Assembly: GCA_902612125.1 (NCBI GenBank)
Contig: CACMBV010000001.1
Span: forward strand, 62,001 to 126,000
DNA: 64,000 nt
Source of the DNA: an uncultured Verrucomicrobiota bacterium
GTDB lineage: Bacteria > Verrucomicrobiota > Verrucomicrobiia > Opitutales > Seribacteraceae
Direction of reading: 5' to 3'
Part shown: piece by piece, positions 2,448 to 44,532 of the stretch
Layout of the letters: each line of letters begins with the position of its first letter
Numbering within the stretch: position 1 is the first letter of the stretch
Position numbers and translations under genes: made by a program
Notes under the pieces: generated by a model
What the model saw: the letters and a program-made list of their open reading frames with translations, nothing else
The model's database searches: none
What the model was told of the DNA's origin: nothing

Positions 2448-2999
2448 ATGTCAGACAGCCCAAATAACGAAGAACCTAAAAAAGATCGCAGGAAGTTTAT
2501 TGTAACTTCAACGATTGCCGCTTCCACGGCCTGTGCGTTATTTCCGCTGGCTTCGGGAATCCCCAGCGTTCTGGATCCTGCGACCAAAGACTCGGATAAT
2601 GCGGAGGTGCCCTGGACCAAGGTCACCAACCTGGCGACCCTTCCGGAAGATGGAACCCCCACCAAGTTTGAAGTTATTCTGGAAAGGGTGAAGGATGCAT
2701 GGACGACCTACACCAACATCCCTGCCGGTGCCGTTTATCTTGCTAGAAATGGGGACAAGGTGACTGCATACAATTTGAAATGCCCACACTTGGGCTGTGC
2801 CATTGATTACCGCAAAAACTCCAATGATTATTTCTGTCCCTGCCACAACAGCACCTTCGGACTCGATGGTTCAGTGACCACCGATAACAGCCCCAGCCCA
2901 CGGGGAATGGACACCATGGATACCAAGGTGGAAGATGGCGTAGTTTGGATTCGCTTCCAGCAATTTGTGCCCAATATTGCGGAGAAAGTACCAGTATGA
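2448..2999 (+). CDS. Rieske 2Fe-2S subunit of a cytochrome bc-type complex
   Basis: A protein of 183 residues that should carry electrons from quinol to cytochrome c or a copper protein in a bc-type complex. The N-terminus has a twin-arginine element (DRRKFIV at 13-19) followed by a hydrophobic stretch, which is the usual Tat-inserted membrane anchor. The cluster-binding boxes are CPHLGC (112-117) and CPCHNS (130-135), giving C112, H114, C130 and H133 as ligands. C117 and C132 are placed for the structural disulfide. The stop overlaps the next start in ATGA, so the cytochrome b gene is translationally coupled and is the obvious partner. No separate cytochrome c1 gene is needed because the partner carries hemes c. 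Confidence 0.95.
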   Translation: MSDSPNNEEPKKDRRKFIVTSTIAASTACALFPLASGIPSVLDPATKDSDNAEVPWTKVTNLATLPEDGTPTKFEVILERVKDAWTTYTNIPAGAVYLARNGDKVTAYNLKCPHLGCAIDYRKNSNDYFCPCHNSTFGLDGSVTTDNSPSPRGMDTMDTKVEDGVVWIRFQQFVPNIAEKVPV

Positions 3000-21904: not shown

Positions 21905-24900
21905 CTAACGGACTTTCATGACCCCACGCATCAGAATATGATGTCCAGGGAACGTGCAGACATATGGATAATCACCTTTGGCAGTCGGAGCCGTAAAGTT
22001 CATTTCCTCTTCCTTGCCGTGGTCCACAAGCTGGGATGCCCAAAGAACATCTTCGGTCTCGGGAACAAATGCCATGGCAAAACCCTGCGCACCTAAGGAA
22101 AGTGCCTGCTGGGCAACCGTGTCTGCTTTATTGGGCTTGGTTACGACTAAGTTGTGCGGCATGAAGTCAGGGTTCGCAAAAATGAGTTTCACATTCTTGC
22201 CGGGCTTTGCGGTGAACTCATTGATATCGTACTTCATTTTTTCAACCACCGTACCAATCCGGATGGTTAATAGGTCGTCGGTATCAGAAATGACTCCTGA
22301 CTTTTCTGCAACCACTTCCACTTCCTCTTCCACCACTTGGGAACCTTTTGCGGGATCGGCGTTATACCAGTGATGCTGAACCGTAAGGGCGGCCATGCGG
22401 GCATGTGGATGTGGAGATTTGAGCATATCATTGAGCAGCCTACCATTTCTACGGTTATGCTGCTGGTGAACCCATAGCGCTTCCATAAGATGATGAGCAT
22501 CCTCCTTCTTCTGAGGGTCGAACTGTTGAATCCATCTTTGTGTAGCCTTGATCACCTCATCGGTGTTGCGTTCGCTTAATTCAACACGTGTACGATGACG
22601 AACACCATCCACGGGATGTTTTAGATTATCCAGAAGATTTTCAATGGGCTGGCCATCTATTTTAACTGATTTCTGCAAGGGCTTTTGGGCATAACTTACA
22701 CGGAATATTCGTCCATGCTTATGATCGCGATTGGGATCACGAACATTGTGTTGCATGTGACCGATTATCACATTTTGCCAGTCGGATACATAAAGGGCTC
22801 CGTCTTCTCCGAAAATAGCATCGGTGGGTCTGAAGTTCTTGTCACCACTTAAAAGAAACCCTTCAGCCTCTTCCTCCTGTTTTGAGCCATCGGCCAGCGT
22901 CTTCGTGACTTTGAGTCTTTGGCCGTTTGGTGTGCCCCAGACTTCACCCAGTTTGGTTTGCTCCACTACCTTCTTTGCGTCCTTTCCACGGCCCACGGTT
23001 TTGGTAAGTTCATACCCGCCATCCCGATGAAGTTTGTACTGTTTAATGCCAAGAAAACCTATGGAATTACAGATAAGAAAGTCTCCCTGCATATCCTCTG
23101 GAAAATTATCACTGGACAGAATTTCACAGGCAGGAACTGGACGAACCTCTTTATTCAAAAGAGAGAACATCTTCCATCCCTTGCCATCTGGACGAACCTG
23201 ATACGGACGACCGCCTGTTCCATCCGTGGCGTATTGATAACCCCAATAGTCAAAGGCTATTCCGTGAGGATTCGGGCTATTTCCGCCGTGCAGAGCAATA
23301 GTGTATCGACGAGGATCAAACCGATACATCGCTGAAGAGCCTGTGGCCAAGGAAGGTCCCCACGGGTGTTCATAGTTATTCTGTAAGAAGATTCCGCTTT
23401 GCCAATAGATACCCCCATCTGGCCCAAAAATGAGATTGTTGGCCGCGTGATGAGTGTCTGAGGTGCCAAGTCCTTGGAAGATCACAAAACGCTCGTCCGC
23501 TCTGTCGTCGCCGTCATTATCACGCAAAAAGACCAAGTCCGGTCCTGAAGTGACCAACACCCCGCCATTCCAAAATTCAAAACCCAATGGATTATGCACC
23601 CTTGCAAATTCAATTACGCGATCCGCCCTTCCATCTCCGTTATCATCCGGAAGAATCAGCAGGGCGTCATTCATTTCCTTCATGGGTTCCCACATGGGAT
23701 AAGTCGGCCAAGCCGCAGCCCACAATCGGCCCTTGGTATCGACCTGCATCTGCACCGGGTTAATCAATTGAGGAAATTGCTTCTCATCCGCGAAAACATT
23801 CACCTCAAAACCATCCCGGACTGCAAAGCGGTTGTTACTTGCTTCAGGACTTAAATATTTAGTGGTTCCTTCCTTTCCTGGATTGGAGCTACGACTTCCT
23901 CCGCCCACATTCGAAACGACCTTGATGGGTACCGGAACATTACTGTCATTTACTTTATATTTTTTACCTTGAGCAGTGGCCCAGATCAGTTTGTCACGAT
24001 TCGCTGTTAACACATCGCGCATTACCAATTCATGCTGGAGGACTTCCGCATTGGATTGATCATCCACAAAACGCAAATTCGATCTACCTCCCCAAATATC
24101 GTTTCCATCAGTTGCCCGATATCGGTTAAACCAATGCAGGTTCTTTTCAAGGACTGCCAGTCTTAGATCTTCCAGTTTGCCATAGTCAGCCACCTCAGTT
24201 CCGAGCAATGCCTGGGCAATGATTTGGCCAAGTTTCCGATTTCCCAATTCATTCAAATGAACACCATTCAAAGTCAGCGGTTCTTTACTTAACTGATATA
24301 GTTTCTGGGTTGGATCGAATAAGTTCACATAGGCAACCCCCGCTTCTTCTGCAGCTTTTTCCGTTGCCTTGGCAAAGGCTGCCAAATTTCGGTTATGAGC
24401 TTTTCCGCGGGGAAGATTGGGTGTTTTCAAATCCTCAAAGGCAATCGGACTGAAGAGAACAATACGGGGAAAGTCTTTCCCATTGGGCTGATAACTTCTA
24501 ACTTTTTGCACAAAATCGATCAAAAGCTTTTTGTGACTTTCAGTTTCTTGTGGTCCGGAGAATGATTCATTGTAACCAAACATAGCCCAGACCACATCAG
24601 CCTTCACATGCTGCAGGTATTGATCCATGGGTGTAAAACCCTTGCTTCTTGGATGATAATTGGGTCGATCCCCTGAAAGAGACATATTCCGGAAGGATAC
24701 ATCCAGTCCATGTAATCCGCTCTGTAGAAAGGTTTCCGTCCAGCCATCGTGTTGCATGCGGTCGGCTAAACCATTGCCCAGGATAGCGACCGTATCACCC
24801 TTTTTAAAACTGAAGGGCGATGGGTCACGATAATCACTTGGCACCTCAACCGCCTCTTTTCGAGTACCTGTAGCCGGGGGAGCTTCTTTTTTACCATTGT

Positions 24901-26413
24901 AAGTCAAAAAGGTTACTTCACCCTTCTTTTTAAGATCAAAAACAATCCGTTGTGCTCCGCGAACTTTGGATCTTTCAAATACTTTTTTCCGATTCTCATC
25001 CAAAAACTCGACTTTGAAATTGTTCAACCGACTTTCTAAACCTTTACGATTCCATACCTCAATTTTCTCAACGGGTAAACTTTTTCCCAGATCTACTTCC
25101 CACCATGGCCCGGTAGAACCAGACCCATCGGTATGGGTTTGACCACCCCCATTCCAATCCGGATTTTTATTTCCATCTATACCTCTTGAAGCAATTCCAC
25201 CCGAGCCCAAGCTCGATTGCTTGGCTTTTCCAGTCCGGGCCACATTCTTTCCATCGCTTAGGATTTCCACTTCATTAAGGGTCAGGATTTTATTGTCCCC
25301 GGGAACAGTAATTCGCAAAAAACGCCCCATGGGTAGGGAACTCTGAGGGGAAGCTTGAGGAGCCGGGCTTTGGACATTTGGATAACCGGGAATCGGGCTA
25401 TCCAGTTTTACATAAACCAAGGGGTTAAGGCCCTTAACCTCTCCCCGGTTTTTGAAGGTCGAGGGTTTGTAGGGCCCAACAAAATCAATTTTAGAATCAC
25501 CTTTGATATGTTTCTCTAAGCCAACGGACCAATAAATCCCATTGATGATCATTCTACGATAACCGGAATTTAAAATGTCCTCAGATGCACCGTAAAGGGA
25601 GGTAAAAACCCTACCCTTTTTCCCATCTTTACCCTTATAATGACGGGTCCATTCACTGGCCATAGGCGGCTTGGTTTTGTCAGCGGCACCATCGGGTTTC
25701 ATCGTCATAAGCGGCTGGGCCATGGTCAGAATATCCCAATCCTTTTGAGCTTCCGCATTGTAACCGCCGGCATGCACATGAATCTTAGATACTCCCCGAA
25801 GAATGGGATGAGTTTTCTTTGCCGGAACCATATCAATCCTGGTACTCTGCTGATGATTTTTTCCGTAGTGCCCCACCCAGCTTTGCCCAAGGACCTGATG
25901 ACCAAACCCGGCGTGATAGTCTTTACCATCATACCGGAAATGATATTTGTAATAGGGATCCTCTTTATCCTTGTAGTTAAATCCGTGAGTGGATGTACGA
26001 AGGCCGACAACCGGACCGGCTCTATTTAAATAATCATCAATATGCTTCATCTGCTCGGGTGGCAGGGCCAGAAAGCGGGTAAAGATAATCATACCATCCG
26101 CATCTTTTAATGCTTCCAGTCCCGGAATGTTTGAAGCTCCTGCTTCAATTTCCCCTTTTGAATTCAGCCCGAACAATACCGTGCAATCAAAGCCATGATG
26201 GACCGCGAGGATGCGGGCCAGAGCTGGTAAGGTTTCCTCAGCCCGATATTCGTGATCACTGGCCACGAAAACCAGCTTTTTTCCCTTGGACAGGTTCTGG
26301 GCTTGGTAAATAACGGGGTTAGCCGAAGCTATCACGGCAGAATGTAGCATGATCGCTAAAATCAAGAATCGGCGTGAAAGAAGGGAGGATAGACCAGTCT
26401 TTGTACTAGACAT
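21905..26413 (-). CDS. Five-module protein: ThuA, discoidin-like, SGNH-like, propeller, azurin
   Basis: 1502 residues from the ATG at 26413; an earlier in-frame start adds 18 residues and spoils the signal peptide. After export (about 1-31) the modules are: a ThuA-like domain (about 45-295); an F5/8-C discoidin-like carbohydrate-binding domain (360-495); an SGNH/GDSL-like domain (530-735) whose nucleophile block reads LGNGLADRM and whose last block reads [10 protein letters not shown]; a 'membrane-bound dehydrogenase' beta-propeller (855-1240) with repeated DxDGDGRAD-like loops; a HEAT-like helical segment (1245-1360); and an azurin/plastocyanin domain (1380-1502). Copper ligands are H1420, C1486, H1491 and M1495. 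Many relatives end in a cytochrome c instead. It likely binds glycans, oxidises a sugar and passes electrons to copper. Confidence 0.88.
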
Positions 26414-26576
26414 AATAAAATGTAGGATTAAGTAATGGGCGATTAATTGAGCAAATAGCCACAACAAATTAAATTACCCCTCTAGACAACGAGAAATCCC
26501 TCCATTTAAAAAACAATTATGAAAGGCAAGTCTCCCTAATGACTGGATAAGCCATCGTTAAAACTACTCATGGGAT

Positions 26577-28025: not shown

Positions 28026-28205
28026 CTAACCCTTCTTCAAAAGGGCTTACTTGAAAGCAAGCCAATACAATCTCCCCAACGATATTAAGATTTTTATCGA
28101 ATAGCCAGAATATCATAGAATTTATAAAAAATTCAAATTTAGACTTGCGTTACTCTTTTACTTATGTATTTAGTGTATTTATATTTCCTAACTAAATACC
28201 TATAT

Positions 28206-31200: not shown

Positions 31201-34200
31201 CAGGCAGTCGCCATACAATGATTCTCAAAACTAATGGTTATGAACAATCAGTTGATTGGCTCACTCTTGATCAAGATAGGGGCACCATAAATCCAAACGG
31301 GAAGCTGACTCTTCAAATAAAAGCAGATGCCCAGAAACTGGATCAGGATGAAAGCACAGCCTACATTCATGTGCTATCCAATGATCCTAGCACCCCTTCC
31401 AAAGTCGTCAAGGTAACCGCAGAAAAACTCCGTTATGACGGCGGCTTGGTCTTCCGTCCGGCTTCCCTTACTTTTGATGAATTATTTGTCGGACAAACAA
31501 CTGAAAAAGAATTGGAAATCACCAACGGCAAAACCGAGGCAATTACCATCAGCCGCTTCGTTTTCCGGGATTCCGCCTTTTCTCATAGGCTTACATTCCC
31601 CATGACTTTGAAGGCGGGAGAAAAAGTAAGTGCCAAAATCTACTTCACTCCAAAAAAAGCAGGCGAGGTAAAAAGTTCAGCCCTTCTTCTTACCAGCGAA
31701 GGAAATGGAAAGAGCATCAGCTTATCGCTGAGAGGATCTGCCAAAGTGGCACCAGCCATTGCTCTAAACCCAGGAAGTATTGCTCAGACCCTCAAGATGA
31801 AAGAGGAGAAAAAAGTTAACCTGACCATCCGAAATACCGGCGGAAGCAACCTTGGATGGTCCATCAAGGGTGCCACCACCTTGGGAGGGAAATCTTTCTC
31901 ATTAGCCGAGGTTTTCGGCATGGATCATTTCATCCCCCTTGAAAAAGGTGCGATTGACACAAGAAGCGGATCCACCATGTCAACCACAGGGGGAGGACCT
32001 GACCATCATGGATATTCCTGGTCGGACTCAAAAGACCCAGCAGGCCCAGAACACGACTGGACTGATATCAGCAAGACTGGAAAGCTGCTGCCCGAACTTT
32101 CCAAAACAGACGATGGATTTGCAAAAATCACCCTTCCCTTCGAAGTCGATTTCTACGGGGAGAAGAGTAAGAATGTATTTGTAAGCTCGAATGGATACCT
32201 AACCTTTGAAGAGGGTTCGATGGAGCACGGTCACTTCCCCCTACCCTCCAGAATGATGCCAACAGCACTCGTCTCCGGGTTTGCCAAAGATCTGAACCCT
32301 TCCCGTGGTGGTAACATTTACTACAAAACAGGGCAGGATGAACTCGTTGTTCAATACGACAAAGTAAAGGATTTCGCCGGCGAGGGTGAGTACACTTTCC
32401 AAATCTGGCTCAACCGTAATGGTGTGATTTATTTTCACTATGGTGAAATGAACGGACCTACAAATCGTGCCACCACCGGCATCCAAAACTTCTACGGGGA
32501 TGTCGGATTGTTGGTCGCTTACAACAACGAGCAAATTAAGTCAGACATGACCGTTCGTTTGGCAACATCACCCAAGTGGTTACACACCTCCAAAAGTGCA
32601 GGCAATCTTGCCAGTGGCAAATCTGAAACAATTCAGCTTACCCTAAAAGCAGGTGAAATCATGGCCGGTAAATATGAAGCTAAGCTTGAGGTAACCAGCA
32701 ATGATCCTTCCAAACCCAGTGTGGAAATTCCTGTCACTCTAAATATCGAGGCTACCCGCACACTCTCTGCCTCCCCCTTGGCACTTGATTTTGGCAGGGT
32801 CGAAGTCGGAGCCAATGCTCAACTGCCACTAATTCTCAAAAATACTGGAAATGCTCCGGTTTCACTGAATGAGATTTCTGCCAATGCAAGCGAGTTTTCT
32901 TCAAATTTCCGCTCAACCACCATCGAGCCTGGAAAATCCGAAGAGATTGTTTTCACTTTCGCCCCAACCCGTGGGCAGACCTACAGAAACCAAGCGACCG
33001 TCATTTCTAATGCGGGAAATTCTCCCACTAAAATTAATTTATCAGGAATTGGAGTAGCGACGCCAAAACTGAGCATTAATCCTGAAAGCCTTAGCATAAC
33101 CGTGGAAGCCGGAAGTAAAGCAACCGATTCAGTGGTGATTGATAATTACAAAGGGCTCGCAGACGGAACATTCAGCCTGAAAGAAATCAGATCAGGAGCC
33201 ACCAAATCAAAAAGTCATTTCAATGAAATGACGGGCGGATCTAGCGAAAATATCCCTGCAGATCCTTTTGCGGCGGAGCATGTTCCAAATGAGCTAATTG
33301 TTTCCTTCAAAGCCGGAAAGCAAGGATTCGAGAACGCTGGTGCTTACAATGTTAAAATTAAGCGCTCACTTGCCAGTGCAAAAGAGCCTGGCCTAGGCAA
33401 CCGTGCGTTGGGCAGCCTGAATCTCGCTCTGATGGAAGCAGAGGGTCAAGTTGACCTGAAAGAACTTGCCAAAAAACTCTCCAGGGATGGTGCGGTTGAA
33501 TATGTTGAGCCCAACTACATCCTTCGCCACACTGCGACTCCCAATGATCCAAACTGGAAATCCCAATGGGCTCTTCCTAAAATGCAGGCAAGCAAGGCAT
33601 GGGAAATTACCAAGGGAGCTCCCAGCGTGGTGGTTGCAGTTATCGATACCGGTATTGACTACAACCATCCCGATCTCCAAGGGAACATTTGGAAAAACCC
33701 GGGCGAAATAGCCGGCAATCGCAAAGATGACGATGGAAATGGATTCGTGGATGATGTGTATGGCTGGGATTTCGTCAATAATGACAATGACCCTATGGAC
33801 GGCAACCGTCACGGTACTCATGTGGCTGGCACCATTGCCGCAGCCACTAATAATAATAAACATGTTGCCGGAGTAGCCTGGCAGGCAAAATTAGTGGCCG
33901 TAAAATTTCTCTCAGACAGAGGCTCTGGAAGCACTGCTGATGCGATCGACTCCATTGCCTACTGTGCAGCCATGAATTTCCCCATTAGCAACAACAGCTG
34001 GGGAGGTGGTGGATACAGTAAGGCACTCAAAGATGTCATAAAAAAAGCTGGGGACAAAGGACAGCTTTTCTGTGCCGCAGCAGGAAATAGATCAGGAAAC
34101 GATAATGACAAAAGACCCTTTTATCCTGCGTCTTATGATTGTGCAAATGTCATTTCTGTTGCCGCTTCAGACAGTAGGGATAAATTGGCCTACTTTTCCT

Positions 34201-37200
34201 GCTATGGTAAAACAACCGTAGATATTGCCGCTCCTGGAGTAAATATTCTCAGCCTGCTGCCAAACAACAGAGTTGGTAATTTAAGTGGAACATCCATGGC
34301 GGCCCCACATGTTGCCGGAGCTGCCAGCCTCATCTTATCGCAAAACCCAAGTGCCGGTCACCAGGATATGAAAAATATTCTGATTAATACAGTTGACCCA
34401 ATCGATGCTTTCAAGGGCAAGATGGTAGCAGAAGGTCGTCTAAACTTACTAAAAGTAGTGGAAGCAACAGGCTCAAAATGGCTTTCAGTAAGCCCCTCTC
34501 AAGGAACGGTCAAAGTAGGCAAGGCAACAAACCTTACCTTCACAGTGGACGCGACCCAATTGGTTGCCGGACAACGCAAGGCTATTGCCGCCTTTTCCAC
34601 CAATGATCCAACTGCTAAGACCATTGAATTGCCGGTTAATGTAAAAGTAACCGGAGAGCCCAAAATGGAACTTAGTGGAAAATCCTTTAACTTTGGTGAA
34701 GTCTGGGTAAATCAAAGAAAAGAGGTTAAACTCACGATTCGTAACAAGGGAACAGACACACTAAAAATCTCTGCATTCACCTTTGGTAATCCTTTATTTG
34801 GAGCTTCCGTAAAGAATCTTGAAATTGCTGCTAAAACGCAAGAGGAAGTGGTTTTATCCGCATTACCAAAAACAAGTGGAAACTTTAAATCGACACTTAC
34901 GATTAGTTCGAATGATCCTGACCAAAGAAATGTAACTGTTTCTTTAGAAGTAAAGTCAGTGACACCTCCCTCTATTGCCATCAACCCAATAAGCATTGAG
35001 TACAAACTCGAGCCAAACCAAAAAGGTGAAAAACAAATTACCATATCAAATTCAGGTCAGGCAACGGGTACATGGAATGCCAAGATTGTGGAAACTAACA
35101 GATCAAAGACAAAAGCTCATGATATGGTTGGCATTTTGAACAGCTTAAATAAGGAAGGGCGTGCACCCCAATTTCTTGATCCAAGTTTACCTGAAATATC
35201 TGATCCTAGTATTAAAAGCGAAACCCAACCTGTAAAATCTGTAAGGGAAAATGGGGGAGGAAATAATTCTTTAGAAATTGCAATTATTGGAGCTGACTAC
35301 TCGAAGTATCTAGAGAACATAAGAAAAGGGTTAGCAGGTACAAACATGTTTGAGGGTGTAACTACTATTCACGCGAGGTCAGTTACTCCAAGTCTTAAAG
35401 AACTTCAAGCTTTTGATTCAGTAATCGTTTATAAGAACTATGGATATAGAAATAATAAACTTTTAGGTGATAACTTGGCGACCTATGCAGATCAAGGAGG
35501 CGGAGTAGTCTGCATGGTTTTTGAATCACACATTAGCAGAAATAGTACTCTTGCAGGCAGATGGGACAAAGAAGATTATGGTGTCTTTGACAAAACTAAT
35601 AAAAAGATATTCCGTTGGTATGAAAAACCAAATGTCATTATGCCTTCGCATCCTATCAATAAAAACTTTAAGAATTTAAAAGCTTATTATAGGTTGGAGA
35701 AGACAAACATTCGACAAAATTGTACTACAATTAGTAAATGGACAGATGGTATACCTCTTACAGTTTACCGCGAAGATAAAGGAAATATCGTTGGATTAAA
35801 CTTCTTCCCGGGCTCAGGGTGGGACTCGAAAACTGATGGATGGACTCTCATGGCCAATGCACTTGAGTGGGCGGCCCAAGGCGGTGCACCTAAATGGATT
35901 ACCGGAGACCCTCTTGCAGGTACTGTTACGGGAGGAGATACAAATCAACAAAAACTTTCCTTCGATGCCACCAGTTTGGACGAAGGCAATTACACCGCCG
36001 AAGTTCAATTCACCACCAATGATCCGAAAAATCCATACCAGGTTGCAAAAGTGAAGTTGATAGTCAGGGAAAACCAAGCTCCTGTTGCAAATTCACAAAC
36101 AGTCAGTCTTAACGAAGACAGCCGGGTGGCGTTTGAGATCAAAGCCAAGGATGAAGATGGTGATCAATTATCCTACTCCCTTGTTGGACAGCCCCAAAAC
36201 GGGATAATAACTGGTAAGGCTCCGAACCTTACTTACACGCCAAAGCCAAACTTTAATGGAACCGACACCCTTTCCTTCAAAGCTTTTGACGGAAGAAAAT
36301 ACAGCAACATTGCAAAGGTGACCTTCCAAGTAAAGGCAGTAAATGATGCTCCATGGGCCCGGTCTTCTGAAGTCAATGCCTCCGAAGATGAGTTCTTTGC
36401 GATTGACTTCAAATATGGAGATCCGGACGGGGATAAGCTTCAACTTACATTTACGAAATCTCCACAGCATGGTCTTGTTTGGAATGAATTTGGTGAGTGG
36501 TACTACCTCCCTGACAATCACTTCAATGGTCAAGATTCCATAAGCTTCACAGTTACGGACGGAAAGCTTACCAGCCAAGAAGCCACGGTGACCATCAACT
36601 TGGAAGCCACTAATGATGCTCCAATTGCCAACGATCTCAATGTAGTGACTCGTCAGAATAAAACGGTTACTATTGAATTAAACGCCACGGATATTGATGG
36701 AGATACCCTAGCCTACAATATCGTTACCAATCCCGAGCATGGAACCCTTCAGCAAAAATCTGCTTCGCAATGGATTTTTAATCCCTTCTCAGAATATGTT
36801 GGAGAGGATAAATTCACCTACAGGGCTAAGGATTCAGAGGTTGCAGGAAATATCGGAGTGGTAACGATCAAAATTCTTGAAACTAACCGTCCTCCTGTTG
36901 TGCAGTCTGCCAGCTTCAGTCTGGTAGAAGATGGTAAGCTTCCCATCAAGTTGTCTGCCTCCGATCCAGATGGTGACAAGCTTACCTTCTCCATTACAAA
37001 AAATCCTGCTCAGGGCAAGTTAACGGGTAATGGTCCATCCTATGAATACACTCCGAATAAAGACTTCAACGGCGTGGATTCATTCGTTGTGGTAGCCAAC
37101 GATGGGGAACTTGATAGCAACGATTCCCTTATAACCTTAAAGGTAGAAGGGAAGAACGATGTTCCAAATTTCGTCAATTCCTTCAGCACACTTTCCGCAG

Positions 37201-38495
37201 GATTACGCGAAACTCCATTTCGCACCAAAGTGGAAGTAGAAGATGTGGACAATGATGAATTGACCCTCACCATCGCGAAAGGACCAGAAAATGGCGATTG
37301 TTACTTTGAGGAGCAAAACCTGGTATATCTTCCAAAACCTGGATTTGAGGGATTAGAGGAAATTGTTCTCGAACTTTCTGACGGAAAAGAATCAGTTCAA
37401 AACACTTTTCCTATTTCCATCGCAAGCCATCAAAACCCCATCCACATTCATTTCGATGAGAGCCAAAATACAGACCTTGTGAATATGCTATACCAAGCAA
37501 ATGAAGTATTGGCATCCAACGCTGAGCGCATCCTCGAATTAAGCGCCGAAGCGAAAGAAAATTCATTAAAAGCAAAATATGCGGAGACCTTGGGTCAGGA
37601 TGCCATGGATCTAAACACTTGGATAGAAAAAATCAGCAAGGGAGAATTGACCGGAGAATTTGAATTCAGTGCCACCGAAAATCAAAATGAAATGCAGTGG
37701 AAAGTGGCTCCTTTCTCGGTTCCCTCATCTAGTGTAGATACTAAACTAAATAATAAACCTTCTTCTGTGAATAATGAATCCGAGCAAGTTGCGGATCATG
37801 TTTCAGATCAACCTTCCACTGAAATTCGTGAAAATGATATGGCACAATCTAATCAGGAAGAAATCACTTCTTTGGACCCTGTATCTAGTGCAGATACTGA
37901 GCTAAATGATAAATCTTCTTCCATTGATAATGAATCCGGGCAGGTTACAGATGATGTTTCTGATGAATCTGACACCACAAGGGGCGAGGACGATTTAGCA
38001 CAGTCCAATGAAAAGAATGAAGCTACTACGGAACCTGCTGCATCTTTTGTTTCCGAAGAACCCAACACCGACAATTCCGAAACCGATACTAAGAAAGATC
38101 CAATCACTCAACCAGTTGCTAATGAGACTGAATCTAAGGAAAGTAAAATTGAGGAAAATAACTCAGAGGAAGATAGATTTGAGTCTTCATTTATCACCGA
38201 GCTTGGTTCCCGTTGGTATGAAGCTCCCGGTATCGGAACTTTCTACGACGCAGGTAACGGATGGATCTATGAGCCAAACCTGGGATGGTCTTACCTCAAG
38301 GTCTGCCCTGTGAACTGCTCCGCCTGGTTGTTCAATGAAAACTTAGGTTGGTTATGGTTCGATGCTGAATTACCCAACATGACTTTTGCGAACAACAACG
38401 GATCTCCAAGCTGGATCTTTTACCCAGAAAGTACTTTTGGACAAAGCGATTTAGTATTCGATTACACCCAAAACTCATGGATGGAGTGGAAATAA
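28206..38495 (+). CDS. Giant exported twin-subtilisin protein with RCC1 and Ig-like modules
   Basis: 3429 residues from the ATG at 28206; an upstream ATG adds 14 residues before the signal peptide. Layout: signal (1-25); acidic linker; propeptide-like domain (162-234); subtilisin S8 (237-559; D284, H339, S499 intact); two ASH/DUF1573-type Ig modules; six RCC1 repeats (716-1007); more ASH modules; a nidogen-like sandwich (1264-1456); ASH modules; second propeptide and subtilisin (about 1695-2085; D1814, H1869, S2030 intact); ASH modules; a ThuA/glutamine-amidotransferase-like domain (2354-2560); five cadherin-like/Big_9 repeats (2622-3079); a helical segment; a 52-residue acidic duplication; and a Trp-rich C-terminal domain (3329-3429). 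It is probably a cell-surface or released protease with adhesion modules. No PEP-CTERM or LPXTG signal is present. Confidence 0.9.
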   Translation: MKKYIISLPLVFATFFFVWKNLALEVTPESFQQETSQPVDDQVVEPAAPSIAKVENTESEVAQLGSNEEPVEKIENDIRITPSQAPPVSNSKPRVLEILEDVKIAIKESVIKNAEGNQALDTRISLVETSMKHPLMILEEKGTKFGQTGEEVITANAHVATHFMLQVVPGSNLVALEEKLSALGCTIADKLTDESFIVEISQDPTIDEHYAVQEALEGIEEYVDVVEPDYLVYAIKTPNDNRLLNLWGMHNTGQTGGTNDKDIDAPEAWDLQTGSKKVLVGVIDTGVDRNHEDLKANMWTNPNEIPNNGKDDDGNGYIDDVHGWDFANNDNNPHDDHSHGTHCAGTIGGVGNNGKGVVGVCWDVSMVGIKFLRSSGGGYLSDGVKSIAYATKIGVDLTSNSWGGGGYSSTMKKAIDEANSKGIGFIAAAGNHRGNNDRNPSYPASYESANVISVGAHDHRGASASFSCYGKKSVDLFAPGVNTLSTTPGNRYASFSGTSMATPHVAGAYALVLSANPNWKIAQVKDALMNAVDLESGLKEKCVSGGRLNVYKALTNEPPKGGLIAANPTEIDFGKLSKGDSRVLPVTFTNGGTDTTTISKATINSSLFSLSLNLPAKIPAGQGIKTSIQFNGSEKGKFDAALTLQSDAKNATKMTVPLKAEVIAQPNLVVSPESLHFGLMDKQSKTEDLFLANTGTSDLKYEIYLSDKVDSPKAKTALFASGYNRYGQFGDGSTTNRKVPVEVLANAKKVSAGYYHTMVLKEDGSLWGMGYNYYGQLGDGSTTNRKNPVKIFDKGIQNVTAGAHHTMVLKEDGSLWGMGYNNNGQLGNGRTYYRQTTPVKIFDKGIQNVAAGSHTMVLKEDGSLWGMGRNSYGQLGNGRTGYRQTTPVKIFDKGIKNVTAGYYHTMVLKEDGSLWGMGYNNNGQVGNGSPYYYQTKPVKIFDKGIQHVAAGLIHTMVLKEDGSLWGMGNNGFGQLGDGSTTTRKTPVKIFDKGIQHVAAGSRHTMILKTNGYEQSVDWLTLDQDRGTINPNGKLTLQIKADAQKLDQDESTAYIHVLSNDPSTPSKVVKVTAEKLRYDGGLVFRPASLTFDELFVGQTTEKELEITNGKTEAITISRFVFRDSAFSHRLTFPMTLKAGEKVSAKIYFTPKKAGEVKSSALLLTSEGNGKSISLSLRGSAKVAPAIALNPGSIAQTLKMKEEKKVNLTIRNTGGSNLGWSIKGATTLGGKSFSLAEVFGMDHFIPLEKGAIDTRSGSTMSTTGGGPDHHGYSWSDSKDPAGPEHDWTDISKTGKLLPELSKTDDGFAKITLPFEVDFYGEKSKNVFVSSNGYLTFEEGSMEHGHFPLPSRMMPTALVSGFAKDLNPSRGGNIYYKTGQDELVVQYDKVKDFAGEGEYTFQIWLNRNGVIYFHYGEMNGPTNRATTGIQNFYGDVGLLVAYNNEQIKSDMTVRLATSPKWLHTSKSAGNLASGKSETIQLTLKAGEIMAGKYEAKLEVTSNDPSKPSVEIPVTLNIEATRTLSASPLALDFGRVEVGANAQLPLILKNTGNAPVSLNEISANASEFSSNFRSTTIEPGKSEEIVFTFAPTRGQTYRNQATVISNAGNSPTKINLSGIGVATPKLSINPESLSITVEAGSKATDSVVIDNYKGLADGTFSLKEIRSGATKSKSHFNEMTGGSSENIPADPFAAEHVPNELIVSFKAGKQGFENAGAYNVKIKRSLASAKEPGLGNRALGSLNLALMEAEGQVDLKELAKKLSRDGAVEYVEPNYILRHTATPNDPNWKSQWALPKMQASKAWEITKGAPSVVVAVIDTGIDYNHPDLQGNIWKNPGEIAGNRKDDDGNGFVDDVYGWDFVNNDNDPMDGNRHGTHVAGTIAAATNNNKHVAGVAWQAKLVAVKFLSDRGSGSTADAIDSIAYCAAMNFPISNNSWGGGGYSKALKDVIKKAGDKGQLFCAAAGNRSGNDNDKRPFYPASYDCANVISVAASDSRDKLAYFSCYGKTTVDIAAPGVNILSLLPNNRVGNLSGTSMAAPHVAGAASLILSQNPSAGHQDMKNILINTVDPIDAFKGKMVAEGRLNLLKVVEATGSKWLSVSPSQGTVKVGKATNLTFTVDATQLVAGQRKAIAAFSTNDPTAKTIELPVNVKVTGEPKMELSGKSFNFGEVWVNQRKEVKLTIRNKGTDTLKISAFTFGNPLFGASVKNLEIAAKTQEEVVLSALPKTSGNFKSTLTISSNDPDQRNVTVSLEVKSVTPPSIAINPISIEYKLEPNQKGEKQITISNSGQATGTWNAKIVETNRSKTKAHDMVGILNSLNKEGRAPQFLDPSLPEISDPSIKSETQPVKSVRENGGGNNSLEIAIIGADYSKYLENIRKGLAGTNMFEGVTTIHARSVTPSLKELQAFDSVIVYKNYGYRNNKLLGDNLATYADQGGGVVCMVFESHISRNSTLAGRWDKEDYGVFDKTNKKIFRWYEKPNVIMPSHPINKNFKNLKAYYRLEKTNIRQNCTTISKWTDGIPLTVYREDKGNIVGLNFFPGSGWDSKTDGWTLMANALEWAAQGGAPKWITGDPLAGTVTGGDTNQQKLSFDATSLDEGNYTAEVQFTTNDPKNPYQVAKVKLIVRENQAPVANSQTVSLNEDSRVAFEIKAKDEDGDQLSYSLVGQPQNGIITGKAPNLTYTPKPNFNGTDTLSFKAFDGRKYSNIAKVTFQVKAVNDAPWARSSEVNASEDEFFAIDFKYGDPDGDKLQLTFTKSPQHGLVWNEFGEWYYLPDNHFNGQDSISFTVTDGKLTSQEATVTINLEATNDAPIANDLNVVTRQNKTVTIELNATDIDGDTLAYNIVTNPEHGTLQQKSASQWIFNPFSEYVGEDKFTYRAKDSEVAGNIGVVTIKILETNRPPVVQSASFSLVEDGKLPIKLSASDPDGDKLTFSITKNPAQGKLTGNGPSYEYTPNKDFNGVDSFVVVANDGELDSNDSLITLKVEGKNDVPNFVNSFSTLSAGLRETPFRTKVEVEDVDNDELTLTIAKGPENGDCYFEEQNLVYLPKPGFEGLEEIVLELSDGKESVQNTFPISIASHQNPIHIHFDESQNTDLVNMLYQANEVLASNAERILELSAEAKENSLKAKYAETLGQDAMDLNTWIEKISKGELTGEFEFSATENQNEMQWKVAPFSVPSSSVDTKLNNKPSSVNNESEQVADHVSDQPSTEIRENDMAQSNQEEITSLDPVSSADTELNDKSSSIDNESGQVTDDVSDESDTTRGEDDLAQSNEKNEATTEPAASFVSEEPNTDNSETDTKKDPITQPVANETESKESKIEENNSEEDRFESSFITELGSRWYEAPGIGTFYDAGNGWIYEPNLGWSYLKVCPVNCSAWLFNENLGWLWFDAELPNMTFANNNGSPSWIFYPESTFGQSDLVFDYTQNSWMEWK
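30474..31220 (+). repeat. Tandem RCC1-encoding DNA repeats
   Basis: The 5' edge of a nearly identical block (ACCATGGTTCTCAAAGAGG and the bases after it) recurs at 30474, 30621, 30768, 30918 and 31068, with a diverged sixth copy near 31214. The period is 147-150 bases, or 49-50 residues. Each copy encodes HTMVLKEDGSLWGMG followed by a variable YNNNGQLGNG segment. Conservation at the nucleotide level, with changes concentrated in the loop part, points to recent amplification or gene conversion within the gene. Confidence 0.95.
36070..37440 (+). repeat. Five cadherin-like (Big_9) protein repeats
   Basis: Five copies of roughly 90 residues each begin with N-x-x-P (NQAPVAN, NDAPWAR, NDAPIAN, NRPPVVQ, NDVPNFV). 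They carry a D-x-D-G-D-x-L calcium-loop-like turn in most copies and an aromatic Y-x-P-x-x-x-F-x-G strand later. The copies have diverged in DNA, unlike the RCC1 block. They probably form a calcium-stiffened stalk before the C-terminal domain. Confidence 0.85.
37728..38039 (+). repeat. 156-base direct duplication in an acidic linker
   Basis: Two copies (37728-37883 and 37884-38039) begin TCTAGTG and encode a 52-residue Ser/Asp/Glu-rich linker (SSSVDTKLNN and SSADTELND; NNESEQVADHVSD and DNESGQVTDDVSD). Identity is clear but imperfect, so the duplication is older than the RCC1 one. The linker connects the helical segment to the Trp-rich C-terminal domain. Confidence 0.85.
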
Positions 38496-38592: not shown

Positions 38593-40080
38593 TCAGTTCG
38601 CTGAAGGAATTTCATTTAAAGTATAGTAAGCAACCTCATGGAGTAGCGGATGGTCAAGTCCCTTAAGGCGAATTCCCGGCATTTTTAATTCATGCACATG
38701 CCCCTTCACCATTCCGTCAACTTTCAAACGAACGCTCTTACCATTGTGTCCAGGAATAGCTTGCGTAATCACTGGAACCGTTCCATCAACCTCAGGACTC
38801 CCATACCCTTTCTGATAAATGTAAGTGTAGGACTCCATGGTGTAAGAAGAAACATCAGCCAATGTTTTTTCATTGGCGACTTGCGTAAAAATGAGTTCAA
38901 AGCCATCTGGCTTGACCCGCATTTCATGAACTTCAAAGGGGATTTTTCCTGTCCAATTGACCCGCTGAAAAGAAAAAGGGCTTTTGCCCCGTGAGCCCCA
39001 TCCACGATTCGTACCGCCTGTAAACATACTTCCATCGGGAGCAAAGCGTGAAACTATGTTACCTGACCCAAAACCTTCAAGAAAAGGAAAAACCGCTCCC
39101 TGATAAAATCCATTTATTTTTTCCAGAAAAACGCGATGAACTTTGGAATGGGTTTGCTCGGAAACAAATAACTGATTTTTGAAAGGACCGAATTTGCCAT
39201 TGGTCTCATCAAACTCGATACCGGCCGGAGAATTCCCCACCTTTCCATGAGGGAGTACGACGGGAGGAGGGATGAGATTAGAAAGCCTTTTTCTTTCAAT
39301 TTCGATCCGACTACCGGATACCGGCTCGGGTGGTTTAGGACCCAGTACATCAGTCAATGCAAAGTATTTGTTGCCCGTAGGATTACCCTGAAACCCACCA
39401 GGACAAAGATGTTTAAGAGAACTCGATCCATTCCACGGACCCTGGTTGTCACAGTAAAAAACGTCACCCAAATGGTTAAACCCGATCCCGCCGGGAGAAC
39501 GAATACCGTATCCAGTTGGGATACATTCTCCCTCTTCAGTCACACGCATACACCAACCTCGAAATGGACTCTTTTCATCGGCACCTCCGGATCCGGTCAG
39601 GCAGAGCACAACCCAAATATCTCCGTTTTTATCATGGCGGGTACCAAACGCATATTCGTGATAATTTCCATTGATTCCCCAGTCATCGGCAACGGTTTCA
39701 AAGACATCGGCACGCCCGTCACCATCCCGGTCTTTCATCCGGGTAACTTCGGGTCGCTGGGTTGCATAAAGCCAGCCGTCTTTCCATGAAATTCCAAGCG
39801 TTTCATGAAGACCCCGGGCATACAAAGTCCATTTTGGCCTAGGTTCATCACTCCATACGCCCTCGCCCACAAAGATATCTCCTCTTCGAGAAGAAATTGC
39901 CACTTTATTTCCGGGAAGGATATCGATACCACTTACTTCAATCACCTCTCCTTCCGGAAGTGGAATGGTGGTGATGGGATAATAATCAGATTCAACAGGT
40001 AGCAGATCCAGAGGCTCGTCCGCCATGCCAAGGGAAGAGAGAGCAAAGAAAAGGTAAGTGATAAGCCTAAAGTTTTTCAT
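38593..40080 (-). CDS. Exported beta-propeller, membrane-bound dehydrogenase type
   Basis: 495 residues with a signal peptide (about 1-20). The body is a six-bladed propeller of the glucose/sorbosone-dehydrogenase-like PVC group. It shows DGWLYATQRPEVTRMKDRDG near 102-121 with a calcium-like DRDGDGRAD loop, RSPGGIGFN near 195 and SPAGIEFDE near 280. The C-terminal 100 residues form a beta-rich VDG...KGHVHELKM segment found in relatives. There is no cytochrome c motif. It starts 32 bases after the azurin-PA14 gene stops, on the same strand. The likely partnership is sugar oxidation with the copper protein as electron acceptor (inference). Confidence 0.85.
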   Translation of the reverse strand: MKNFRLITYLFFALSSLGMADEPLDLLPVESDYYPITTIPLPEGEVIEVSGIDILPGNKVAISSRRGDIFVGEGVWSDEPRPKWTLYARGLHETLGISWKDGWLYATQRPEVTRMKDRDGDGRADVFETVADDWGINGNYHEYAFGTRHDKNGDIWVVLCLTGSGGADEKSPFRGWCMRVTEEGECIPTGYGIRSPGGIGFNHLGDVFYCDNQGPWNGSSSLKHLCPGGFQGNPTGNKYFALTDVLGPKPPEPVSGSRIEIERKRLSNLIPPPVVLPHGKVGNSPAGIEFDETNGKFGPFKNQLFVSEQTHSKVHRVFLEKINGFYQGAVFPFLEGFGSGNIVSRFAPDGSMFTGGTNRGWGSRGKSPFSFQRVNWTGKIPFEVHEMRVKPDGFELIFTQVANEKTLADVSSYTMESYTYIYQKGYGSPEVDGTVPVITQAIPGHNGKSVRLKVDGMVKGHVHELKMPGIRLKGLDHPLLHEVAYYTLNEIPSAN

Positions 40081-40112
40081 GTCAGGTTATTTTAAAGAAT
40101 TTCGTTTCTTTC

Positions 40113-41705
40113 TCAATCAGTCCAACGGTAAGTGATCTCCATCTCGGATTTTCCATTTTCAAAGACGATGGGGACACGCAAATCTCCATTGCTTGCCAGA
40201 ACCTCTCCTCCTTTTACAGAAACAAAAAGTTCTTCATCATAGTATCCCTTGTCAGCTTGCAGAAATTTTCCCTGAGCCAGAAGAAGGTAAAGATTGGAAG
40301 GGGGCTCCTTACCAGTGAATTTAAGCATTCGGCGGATCGTTCCAGGTTTTTCAGTGGAGGTACTGGCTACCGGGATTGTTTTGTCTGTAATTGAAACTCC
40401 CTGTCGGCTGTATCTAAATGTAGGTCTTTGGAATTTATCCAAGACATAGCCTTGAAAATCTATTTCCTTGGTTCGATACTCTGAACCCGGCCAGATAGAG
40501 TTCGCTTTCTCCAATTCAGAGATTACCACGCCCTCCGGCAAGCGAATCACATCACTACCAGCGGGCGGTTGAAAGCCCTGTCCTCTTCCGATCCAGTGAC
40601 GAGCCCCATCAATGAATTCACCATGCCAGATCATTGCCAATCTCATATGGTTGGCATCAAAGGCGATATTTACTCCTTCATGATATCCCACTCCAATCGC
40701 CCGCGGCCCTGCCCCGAAAATAAAATTCCGGTAAAGAGTTGCTTCTCCCTCAGGTGCTTCAATCAACATACCCTCCACCACTTGTCCCGGCTTCGGTGCG
40801 AATTTGGAAAGGGGCTTATTTTTAAAGCCTGGACCTGACCACGAAACACTCAGGAATTCCTGTCCGCCCAACTCAAAATATTTAACTTCAATATCATGCC
40901 TTCCTTTTTTCAACTCGACGGAACCCGCCTTTGCTTGATTGCCATGTACCCCGTCATTATCGACAATCATTTTGCCATTTATGAAAAGCTGGGATCCATC
41001 ATCCGAGGAAACGGTGAAAGAATATTTTCCATCCTTTGGGCATTCAATCTTGCCATTAAAAACGAATGCAAAGTTATCTTTCACCTCTCGCATTGAAATA
41101 TCAAAAAGGCCTGTGGCCAGGGTTCCAGACTTCACCACTTTAAATTCTGAAAAGTCCGGCATCTTGCTCCATTTTCCGTGATACATTTTGTAGGTAAGAT
41201 TGCTGACCGGGTTAGCCTTCTTGGTCACACCCATCATCCCATTCATTAATTGATAATGACCCGGGAAAGTACAGATATAAGGATAATCCGCTTCCACTTT
41301 GGGAACCTTGAAATAAAAGACAGTCTCCATGCCGGGTTGCACCATTCCCGAACTGGCCAGAATTCGAGGATGCCCCTTTGGTTCCCAGTCCATTTTAACT
41401 CCTTTGTCACCGAGCTTAAGAACCGCATCGATAACCTCCTGTCCCTTATCTCCGTTTTTTTTCCTTCCAGGTGTGCAGAAAATAAGATTGTGAGGGAGTG
41501 AGTCAGGATTTTTAAATAGCACTTTTACCTTGGAATTTGGCTTAACGCTAAAACTTTCCACATCGTATTTCATCTGTGCCTCCAGCGTGCTGATGGTAAT
41601 TTCCTGATCGACTTTTTCAAATCCCGCTGGAGGATTCTCAGCGTGCAGGGCAACGGAAAGTAAAAGGCAATTTGCTAAAATAAAATTAATCGATGAGAAA
41701 TTCAT
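40113..41705 (-). CDS. Exported azurin-PA14 copper protein
   Basis: 530 residues with a signal peptide (about 1-22). Residues 35-160 are an azurin/plastocyanin-type cupredoxin with ligands H72 (LPHN), C145 and H150 (CTFPGH) and M154. Residues about 170-305 are a PA14-like carbohydrate-binding domain (SSDDGSQLFINGKMIVDNDG). The remaining 220 residues resemble the DUF6797 region seen in related proteins, with YRNFIFGAGPRAIGVGY near 343. A GAGGA element nine bases before the ATG is a good ribosome-binding site. It is the first gene of a two-gene unit with the propeller. The cupredoxin is clearly related to the C-terminus of the 1502-residue protein, sharing YPY, CTFPGH and the PHNL block. Confidence 0.9.
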   Translation of the reverse strand: MNFSSINFILANCLLLSVALHAENPPAGFEKVDQEITISTLEAQMKYDVESFSVKPNSKVKVLFKNPDSLPHNLIFCTPGRKKNGDKGQEVIDAVLKLGDKGVKMDWEPKGHPRILASSGMVQPGMETVFYFKVPKVEADYPYICTFPGHYQLMNGMMGVTKKANPVSNLTYKMYHGKWSKMPDFSEFKVVKSGTLATGLFDISMREVKDNFAFVFNGKIECPKDGKYSFTVSSDDGSQLFINGKMIVDNDGVHGNQAKAGSVELKKGRHDIEVKYFELGGQEFLSVSWSGPGFKNKPLSKFAPKPGQVVEGMLIEAPEGEATLYRNFIFGAGPRAIGVGYHEGVNIAFDANHMRLAMIWHGEFIDGARHWIGRGQGFQPPAGSDVIRLPEGVVISELEKANSIWPGSEYRTKEIDFQGYVLDKFQRPTFRYSRQGVSITDKTIPVASTSTEKPGTIRRMLKFTGKEPPSNLYLLLAQGKFLQADKGYYDEELFVSVKGGEVLASNGDLRVPIVFENGKSEMEITYRWTD

Positions 41706-43221: not shown

Positions 43222-44532
43222 ATGAACAATACACGCAGAGACTTCATCAAATCTTCGGCTGCAGTCGGCAGTTTTTTTATTCTTCCATCCGGCTTGCGGG
43301 CTAAGGCACCAAACAGTAAAATTTGCACCGCTCACATTGGTACCGGTGGAAAAGGACGTATTGATACGGTTTATCTTGCAAAGCATGATAATGTCGAGGT
43401 GATTGGCTTGTGCGATGTCGATTATGCCCATGGTAAAATTGACACCTGGTCCAAGCAATTTAAGAGTGCCACTGCCTTTCAGGACTACCGGGAGATGCTT
43501 GCCAAACTTGATGACAAGATTGACGCGGTTTCCATTTCCACGCCTGACCACACTCATTACCCAGCCACCATGGATGCAATGGAGAGAGGAAAGCATATCT
43601 ACCTGCAAAAGCCATTAACCCACAAGCTCAAAGAAGCCCGGCATCTGGCCGAATTTGCGGCTGAGAAAGGACTGACCACCCAAATGGGCATTCAGAATCA
43701 GTCTCGGGAAGCTTATCGCTTGGCTCGACATTACATACAAAAGGGTCTTATCGGAAAAATCAGTAAAGTCTATGTCTGGTCTTTTAAAACATGGGGATAT
43801 GACGGGGAACCCTTCAAGGAAAAATCAGAAATACCCGATACCTTGGACTGGAACCTATGGTTGGGCACGGCTCCAGTGCATAATTATGTCAGCAAGGTTT
43901 ATCATCCTGGTCAGTGGCGTAAACTCCTCGACTTTGGTTGCGGTACACTCGGAGACATGGGTATTCATATTTTCGATACCCCCTTTAAGGCACTTGATTT
44001 GAAAGACCCCAAATGGGTCGAAGCGGAGTGTCGTGAACCCAACGGGTTTGGCCATGCCGAAAAGAATAAGGTTCATTACGGATTTAAACCAACCAAGTAC
44101 ACAACCAATGACTTCACCTTCACATGGTGGGACGGTTCCGATGCGCCAAGGCACAAGAACAACCCCGACCTGATGCTTCCAAACGGAGACGAGTTACCCA
44201 ATCAGGGAGCGGTCTTCGTAGGGGAAAACGGACGAATGGTCTTACCCCATTGCTCCATGCCCACCTTTTACCCCGAGAGTGTAATCGACAATCTCGCCAA
44301 ACCCGACATTGAGGGAGTGGACCACTACACTCAATTTCTCGATGCCATCGAAGGCAAAGACAAGACTCTAGCTGGATTTGATTATTCCGGACCTCTTGGT
44401 GAATCATTATGTCTCGGAGTTGTGGCCTGTCAGTTCCCCGGCAAACGGCTCAATTGGAATGCCAAGAAAATGAAGGTGACCAACCTGCCCGAAGCCAATC
44501 CACACCTCAAGGGCAAGTATCGGAAGTTCTAA
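43222..44532 (+). CDS. Tat-exported Gfo/Idh/MocA oxidoreductase
   Basis: 436 residues. It opens with a twin-arginine leader (NTRRDFIKSSAAVGSFF), so this NAD(P)-dependent enzyme is exported folded with its cofactor. The Rossmann block is AHIGTGGKGR near 37-46. The signature lysine is in LQKPLTH near 131, with Gln where many relatives have Glu. The C-terminal alpha/beta domain has the LGDMGIHIFDTPF block near 245. Tat-exported members are abundant in Planctomycetota and Verrucomicrobiota and usually act on sugars or, as in glycoside hydrolase family 109, on N-acetylgalactosamine linkages. It precedes a sulfatase by 69 bases in the same direction. Confidence 0.93.
   Translation: MNNTRRDFIKSSAAVGSFFILPSGLRAKAPNSKICTAHIGTGGKGRIDTVYLAKHDNVEVIGLCDVDYAHGKIDTWSKQFKSATAFQDYREMLAKLDDKIDAVSISTPDHTHYPATMDAMERGKHIYLQKPLTHKLKEARHLAEFAAEKGLTTQMGIQNQSREAYRLARHYIQKGLIGKISKVYVWSFKTWGYDGEPFKEKSEIPDTLDWNLWLGTAPVHNYVSKVYHPGQWRKLLDFGCGTLGDMGIHIFDTPFKALDLKDPKWVEAECREPNGFGHAEKNKVHYGFKPTKYTTNDFTFTWWDGSDAPRHKNNPDLMLPNGDELPNQGAVFVGENGRMVLPHCSMPTFYPESVIDNLAKPDIEGVDHYTQFLDAIEGKDKTLAGFDYSGPLGESLCLGVVACQFPGKRLNWNAKKMKVTNLPEANPHLKGKYRKF

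Follow-up and report, generated by a model that had tools for sequence, protein, structure and literature searches.

The sulfatase genes of Verrucomicrobiota and Planctomycetes are interspersed with many genes for large exported redox proteins whose function is unknown. Haem-bearing PVC proteins that carry PA14 and other glycan-binding domains, and that lie near sulfatase genes, were described by He et al. 2017 (PMC5615132), who called the function of these PVC-type cytochrome proteins unknown and suspected a carbohydrate role. Here we analyse a window of 64,000 nucleotides from an uncultured Verrucomicrobiota bacterium (assembly GCA_902612125.1, contig CACMBV010000001.1, positions 62,001 to 126,000), in which the gene of a copper protein stands directly beside that of a propeller protein. 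The locus raises the question of whether the two proteins form a redox partnership and, if so, which chemistry they serve.

Overall architecture of the gene pair

Both open reading frames were found at the coordinates and on the strand given by the original prediction, which had read them as two adjacent minus-strand genes for an azurin–PA14 protein and a propeller (Table 1). Gene 2, encoding the propeller protein P0002, starts 32 bases downstream of gene 1, which encodes P0003, and neither sequence contains a CxxCH motif. The N-terminus of P0003 is signal peptide-like, and the copper domain at the N-terminal end of the protein scores 28.3 bits against Pfam PF00127 (cut-off 21.2). In the predicted model, this domain is closest to auracyanin (1qhq, Z 17.0, rmsd 2.3 over 126), with azurins at a Z of about 14; the azurin equivalog model TIGR02695 gives 31.3 bits, below its cut-off of 105.1. 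All 18 homologues compared keep the ligands H72, C145, H150 and M154, and of the 117 azurin domains found on DUF6797 proteins, 115 contain the copper motif; the remaining two are truncated or include unread bases. By its PF00127 score, its ligands and its predicted fold, the copper domain of P0003 is a type-1 cupredoxin.

The PA14 domain resembles the solved PA14 chains 6qdi, 6qe7 and 6xa5; the fold matches listed for P0003 consisted of azurin and PA14 chains. The original description of gene 1 was correct for these two domains but missed a third, the C-terminal DUF6797-like domain, which reaches 19.6 bits against PF20601 (cut-off 24.9). Relatives of the module score up to 33 and 62.8 bits with the same model, and the assignment in P0003 is supported also by our own alignment and by a search of the phylum.

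Table 1. Features of the gene pair and of related genes in the window
Feature	Coordinates	Strand	Remarks
Gene 1, exported azurin–PA14–DUF6797-like protein P0003	40113..41705	−	530 aa
Type-1 copper domain, azurin/auracyanin-like (P0003)	41220..41606	−	residues ~34–162; ligands H72, C145, H150, M154
PA14 domain, likely glycan binding (P0003)	40776..41213	−	residues ~165–310; PF07691 68.3 bits
DUF6797-like beta domain, constant partner domain of the propeller (P0003)	40116..40760	−	residues ~316–530; PF20601 19.6 bits, below cut-off
Gene 2, exported six-bladed propeller P0002, soluble glucose dehydrogenase fold	38593..40080	−	495 aa; propeller ~29–379
ThuA–F5/8C–GDSL–propeller–cupredoxin protein	21905..26467	−	1502 aa from ATG at 26413
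Cupredoxin domain of the 1502-residue protein, C-terminal	21908..22264	−	41% identity to that of gene 1
ThuA-like domain of the 1502-residue protein	25529..26128	−	29.5 bits, below cut-off 33.4
Gfo/Idh/MocA oxidoreductase near the pair	43222..44532	+	possible pathway partner

Predicted fold and conserved residues of the propeller

P0002 is a DUF7133/TIGR02604-like propeller, with scores of 29.6 and 35.9 bits, respectively, the latter not reaching the TIGR02604 cut-off of 122.2. Its predicted model (pLDDT 85.8, pTM 0.87) best matches 3a9g (Z 28.4 over 299 residues), followed by 2ism (Z 27.7), the Acinetobacter glucose dehydrogenase (27.0) and fungal AA12 (26). PQQ sugar dehydrogenases lead the fold matches (Z 25–28.4), other propellers score 24 or less, and the fold as modelled is nearest to the PQQ sugar dehydrogenases, with AA12 after them. 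Searching solved structures by sequence with P0002 or the family profile brought up nothing beyond designed Pizza propellers and NHL-type repeats, which were of no use, and a search with the relative L096 gave no match.

H141 and R194 are invariant in all family members with data (115 relatives), as are D117 and D125, and the D117–D121–D125 loop is invariant or nearly so in these diverse members. At the level of sequence, the conservation of His141, Arg194, D117 and D125 favours the presence of some kind of active site in the propeller.

The nature of its cofactor is a separate matter. The propeller-family profile matches GSDH proteins, including E. coli YliI, at an hhalign value of 97.9%. In the profile alignment, Arg194 falls on the Arg of the RNPQG motif and the invariant His141 is offset by one residue. 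At the Asn, Lys and Arg-x-Arg positions of the GSDH family, which we take to be the PQQ contacts, the propeller has Ser195, Thr311 and no Arg pair. No PF07995 match was obtained for P0002, and the distant relative L096 alone has one, below the cut-off. In addition, pqqC exceeded its cut-off in none of 57 relatives, whereas 5 of the 194 phylum genomes searched in the same way gave a match above it. PQQ as the propeller cofactor is thus unsupported by both the pqqC search and the residue alignment, and its use is doubtful because the relatives lack pqqC and most of the PQQ contact residues are lost.

Conservation of the pair and its coupling to DUF6797

The original prediction proposed a co-occurrence analysis, and the pair was indeed found beyond the source genome. 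Among 57 relatives searched, the azurin gene is followed by the propeller gene in all 16 that have a close copy, with the two genes overlapping slightly in some cases and lying up to about 110 bases apart in others. Of 145 Verrucomicrobiota genomes sampled evenly, the DUF6797-like model matches 4, and the strong propeller matches fall in the same 4; three other genomes have weak propeller matches only (E 1e-8 to 7e-4). Each of the ten DUF6797 matches in this sample adjoins a propeller match or shares a reading frame with one. In a scan of named genomes, the azurin form was found in marine Opitutia, Roseibacillus, Akkermansiaceae, Prosthecobacter, Verrucomicrobium and Chthoniobacteraceae, with relatives in Saprospiraceae, Lewinella and Fodinibius. 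Its occurrence is not confined to the source genome: the module is found repeatedly across Verrucomicrobiota and extends into Bacteroidota. Because the copper ligands are invariant and the gene pair is kept, the association goes beyond chance.

Azurin and cytochrome c exchange in the same position

An electron carrier lies beside or fused to 102 of 117 distinct propellers, with cytochrome c in 41 and azurin in 61, the azurin count being inflated because the named-genome scan relied on azurin motifs. The cytochromes contain one to five CxxCH motifs and occupy the same slot as azurin, and the carriers are nearly always joined to the DUF6797-like domain. The 70 loci from relatives, some of them chosen through the azurin gene, include 23 with azurin and 39 with cytochrome. 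As for the propellers that have no carrier, five have a PF06439 gene in front instead and three have a DUF6797 gene with no visible carrier; most of the remainder are at contig edges or were missed by the ORF picker. L113, L121 and L153, tabulated as carrier-less, encode a tblastn match to the azurin–PA14–DUF6797 protein that the ORF picker had dropped.

A quick tree built from 115 propellers shows at least seven changes of carrier between azurin and cytochrome. Because azurin and haem exchange repeatedly on this tree, the azurin domain is very probably a working electron carrier for the module, and the most straightforward interpretation is that what counts is the electron transfer that the carrier performs.

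True fusions point in the same direction. Single-chain azurin–DUF6797–propeller proteins occur in Roseibacillus (L145–L147), and the equivalent cytochrome–DUF6797–propeller chains are found at L096, L243 and L245 and in the source genome (L298). Propellers with a C-terminal azurin occur in Bacteroidota (L150–L152), and contig 34 of the source genome encodes a DUF6797–propeller–azurin protein with intact ligands (L299). Taken together, the kept adjacency, the true fusions and the swapping of carriers strongly support the propeller–cupredoxin partnership that had been predicted, and we regard it as almost certain. The accompanying idea of a copper-based pathway needs changing: the pathway is not specific to copper, as a large part of the family has cytochrome c in the same slot. 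The window also contains Rieske (2448–2999) and cytochrome b–c (2945–4756) genes, which had been named as a candidate link to the membrane; they lie 34 kb from the pair, and no tie to it was found.

The 1502-residue protein belongs to a related system

The original prediction had also viewed the 1502-residue protein of the window as the fused form of the pair. Its gene lies 12.1 kb away, with one 3443-residue gene and one sulfatase gene in between, and its product would comprise 1520 aa if read from TTG, the ATG being residue 19. The copper domains of this protein and P0003 do share the predicted blocks, PHNL and YPY[IV]CTFPGH, and are 41% identical over 125 residues. By comparison, BLASTP aligns P0002 with the propeller of the 1502-residue protein over only 55 aa (31 bits), and the propeller-family model gives the latter 15.7 bits as compared with about 810 for P0002. 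With TIGR02604 the 1502-residue protein scores 166.2 bits (cut-off 122.2), yet it has no CxxCH motif. A direct fused ortholog is ruled out, its propeller being of the other subfamily (TIGR02604); as the propeller scores are so far apart, the 1502-residue protein is a related system and not the fused form of the pair. The two are neighbours elsewhere: a counterpart of the 1502-residue protein lies directly downstream of the pair on the same strand in L068 and L074 and slightly further away in L075, and its ThuA-bearing part is located downstream of the pair also in L066 and L038.

The module is linked to 3-keto sugar enzymes

PF06439, the 3-keto-disaccharide hydrolase family, acts on 3-ketotrehalose and is needed together with LacABC for lactose in Caulobacter (PMC9007349). 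The azurin–PA14 protein carries a fused domain of this family in L125 and L133, as does the PA14 protein in L150 (our own model adds L129, L151 and L152); in L244, L303 and six further loci the domain is fused to the propeller itself. A PF06439 gene immediately precedes the gene of the carrier or the propeller in L081–L085, L087, L218, L219, L235, L253, L254 and L256. PF06439 is common in these genomes, and its density of about 7 per Mb would place it in about 3 of 70 relative loci; it is found fused or within the immediate operon in 19, an enrichment that is uncorrected for shared descent and is not a strict probability. The linkage changes at least nine times on the propeller tree, likewise uncorrected. 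The fusions are firmer evidence for a 3-keto link than these counts.

ThuA proteins, which belong to 3-keto sugar catabolism in rhizobia, show a similar pattern. A ThuA gene is directly upstream of the module in L220–L222 and directly downstream in L250–L252, and two further fusions of ThuA, to DUF7133 propellers, occur in the source genome (L299, L300). The window itself contains no PF06439 gene, and the ThuA-like domain of the 1502-residue protein there is below the cut-off. An SMP-30/gluconolactonase gene adjoins the fused module L299 in the source genome, which fits oxidation at C1 better than at C3. SMP-30 linkage as a general rule was rejected: besides L299, such a gene is near only one surveyed propeller locus, on the opposite strand.

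The repeated fusion or operon linkage of the module to PF06439 or ThuA is new in this analysis, and we therefore propose an "oxidise, then cleave" 3-ketoglycoside system.

Proposed mechanism and alternative explanations

The chances are even, in our judgement, that the pair is the redox half of such an exported sugar module. In the proposed scheme, the propeller, through His141 and Arg194, would bind and oxidise a glycoside hydroxyl, most likely that at pyranoside C3, and the DUF6797-like domain would act as a fixed docking partner that holds the azurin domain next to the propeller. The PA14 domain would hold the glycan, and the azurin domain would accept single electrons and hand them to the respiratory chain, with cytochrome c taking its place in many relatives. 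Cleavage of the 3-keto product would fall to a hydrolase/lyase of the PF06439 family or to a ThuA-type protein, and the candidate in the source lineage is the ThuA-bearing 1502-residue protein. The gene pair, its domains and copper ligands, the kept adjacency, the fusions, the exchange of carriers and the repeated PF06439/ThuA linkage are observed; we infer propeller catalysis, the direction of electron flow, the C3 regiochemistry and the final acceptor. Oxidation of glycosides by the module is probable; that C3 is the site and a 3-ketoglycoside the product could go either way. The predicted sugar oxidation is retained on these conditional terms, with a context that points to 3-ketoglycoside chemistry and a use of PQQ that is doubtful.

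The fold and the profile could also be read as those of a PQQ-dependent C1 sugar (aldose) dehydrogenase that works with scavenged PQQ and a copper acceptor and yields lactones. Every one of the best structural matches is a PQQ sugar dehydrogenase (Z 25–28.4), the GSDH profile match reaches 97.9% in hhalign with His and Arg invariant, and a gluconolactonase gene adjoins the fused form in the source genome. In AA12, moreover, electron carriers are fused to propellers of the sugar dehydrogenase type, which offers a precedent for the arrangement seen here. Against this, pqqC is missing in 57 relatives, the Asn, Lys and Arg-x-Arg positions are not conserved, P0002 is unmatched by PF07995, and C1 oxidation would leave the repeated PF06439/ThuA linkage unexplained; we consider such an enzyme unlikely. 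Electrons might instead run from the azurin or cytochrome to the propeller and the DUF6797-like domain, for example in an oxygen- or peroxide-dependent oxidation or in the reduction of a substrate. The propeller fold is akin to dehydrogenases and the fused 3-ketoglycoside-processing domains require an oxidised product, which makes reverse flow improbable, even though carriers are reversible, sequence does not fix the direction, and the closest fold of the azurin domain is that of auracyanin-type cupredoxins, which are normally reduced by the respiratory chain.

Propellers of the P0002-type fold are often binding proteins, and the cofactor site is not recognisable, which would suit a non-enzymatic scaffold that binds substrate for another, oxidising protein, with the carriers only docking. 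The operons contain no constant third redox gene, and His141, Arg194 and the D117–D121–D125 loop are invariant or nearly so over 115 diverse members, so a mere scaffold appears distinctly improbable. Finally, these genomes are rich in azurin domains as well as in propellers, and the two might meet by chance, or the copper domain might serve storage with no redox partnership; the gene order kept in 16 of 16 relatives, the three fusion arrangements and the exchange with cytochrome c render this scarcely credible.

Comparison with known redox systems

The proposed "oxidise, then cleave" module has likenesses to several known systems. Like the PVC-type cytochrome proteins (TIGR02604; PSCyt/PSD) of Planctomycetes and Verrucomicrobia, which join propeller or PSD domains to glycan-binding domains such as PA14, the pair is exported, multi-domain and of redox type; unlike them, it has copper for haem, a distinct propeller subfamily, and a DUF6797-like partner in place of PSCyt/PSD. 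The LacABC lactose 3-dehydrogenase (Price et al. 2022, PMC9007349) provides a case of periplasmic C3 oxidation tied to a DUF1080/PF06439 3-ketoglycoside hydrolase. In our module, by contrast, the candidate dehydrogenase is the propeller with its DUF6797-like partner, the carrier is azurin or cytochrome c, and no LacABC-type genes were seen.

With the soluble PQQ glucose/aldose dehydrogenases (PF07995) and AA12, the propeller shares the six-bladed fold as predicted and an Arg at the aligned position, its invariant His lying one residue off in the alignment, and a fused electron carrier is a feature that the family has in common with AA12. It differs from both in that P0002 has no PF07995 match, the PQQ contacts are partly lost, the relatives lack pqqC and the carrier is an azurin. 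P0003 resembles the azurin/auracyanin cupredoxins (PF00127) in its fold and in all four side-chain copper ligands, but its copper unit is a domain of a large protein; a published azurin survey excluded matches of more than 200 aa (PMC8779525). In the open-access literature, we found no description of a copper variant of the PVC redox proteins or of the 3-keto linkage, and no match for DUF6797 or for azurin, PA14 and Verrucomicrobia combined; a single TIGR02604 match dealt with beta-galactosidases.

A broader and more tentative proposal, which we hold to be rather doubtful, is that the propeller/DUF6797 pair constitutes a new class of exported, PQQ-independent glycoside 3-dehydrogenase whose copper and haem carriers can replace each other freely, and that it starts a 3-ketoglycoside pathway in Verrucomicrobiota and some Bacteroidota, feeding the numerous PF06439/ThuA proteins found there.

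The module turns the puzzle of the exported redox proteins into a testable case, in which a single propeller, one unchanging partner domain and a one-electron carrier that can be exchanged go together with direct fusions to enzymes of 3-keto sugars. Should the dehydrogenase activity be confirmed, the module would show how the respiratory chain of these bacteria is charged straight from glycans that lie outside the cytoplasm, and it would provide a dehydrogenase for the many 3-ketoglycoside hydrolases encoded in their genomes.

Neighboring genes and related loci

In the window, the gene after the Rieske gene encodes a cytochrome b that continues at its C terminus into cytochrome c domains with two CxxCH motifs. 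Between the azurin–propeller pair and the fused propeller–cupredoxin gene lies the gene for a protein of 3443 residues, which combines two subtilase domains with RCC1 repeats and with repeats of HYDIN/ASH-type Ig and cadherin-like kinds. The window also holds about ten sulfatase genes, among them one encoding two sulfatase domains in a single 990-residue chain.

Elsewhere in the source genome, DUF6797, propeller and azurin form a single chain at L299; next come genes for an SMP-30/gluconolactonase, for a protein resembling short-chain dehydrogenases, and for a ThuA–DUF7133 protein. At L300, a protein with a C-terminal copper domain adjoins a 1035-residue DUF7133 propeller–ThuA protein.

Variant partners of the pair's propeller family are found at further loci. 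At five of them (L084, L085, L087, L218 and L219), neither a carrier (azurin or cytochrome c) nor a DUF6797 gene adjoins the propeller, and one or two PF06439 (3-keto-disaccharide hydrolase) domains lie immediately 5' of it. At L257, a family member is fused to DUF6807.

Coordinates of the features described
Location	Positions	Strand	Feature
Window	2448-4756	+	Rieske and cytochrome b-c genes
Window	28164-38495	+	3443-residue protein
Window	49042-52014	+	Double sulfatase
L299 (contig 34)	2242-9000		DUF6797–propeller–azurin chain and the genes that follow it
L300 (contig 1)	1771-6132		Copper-domain locus
L257	4710-7622	-	Propeller fused to DUF6807
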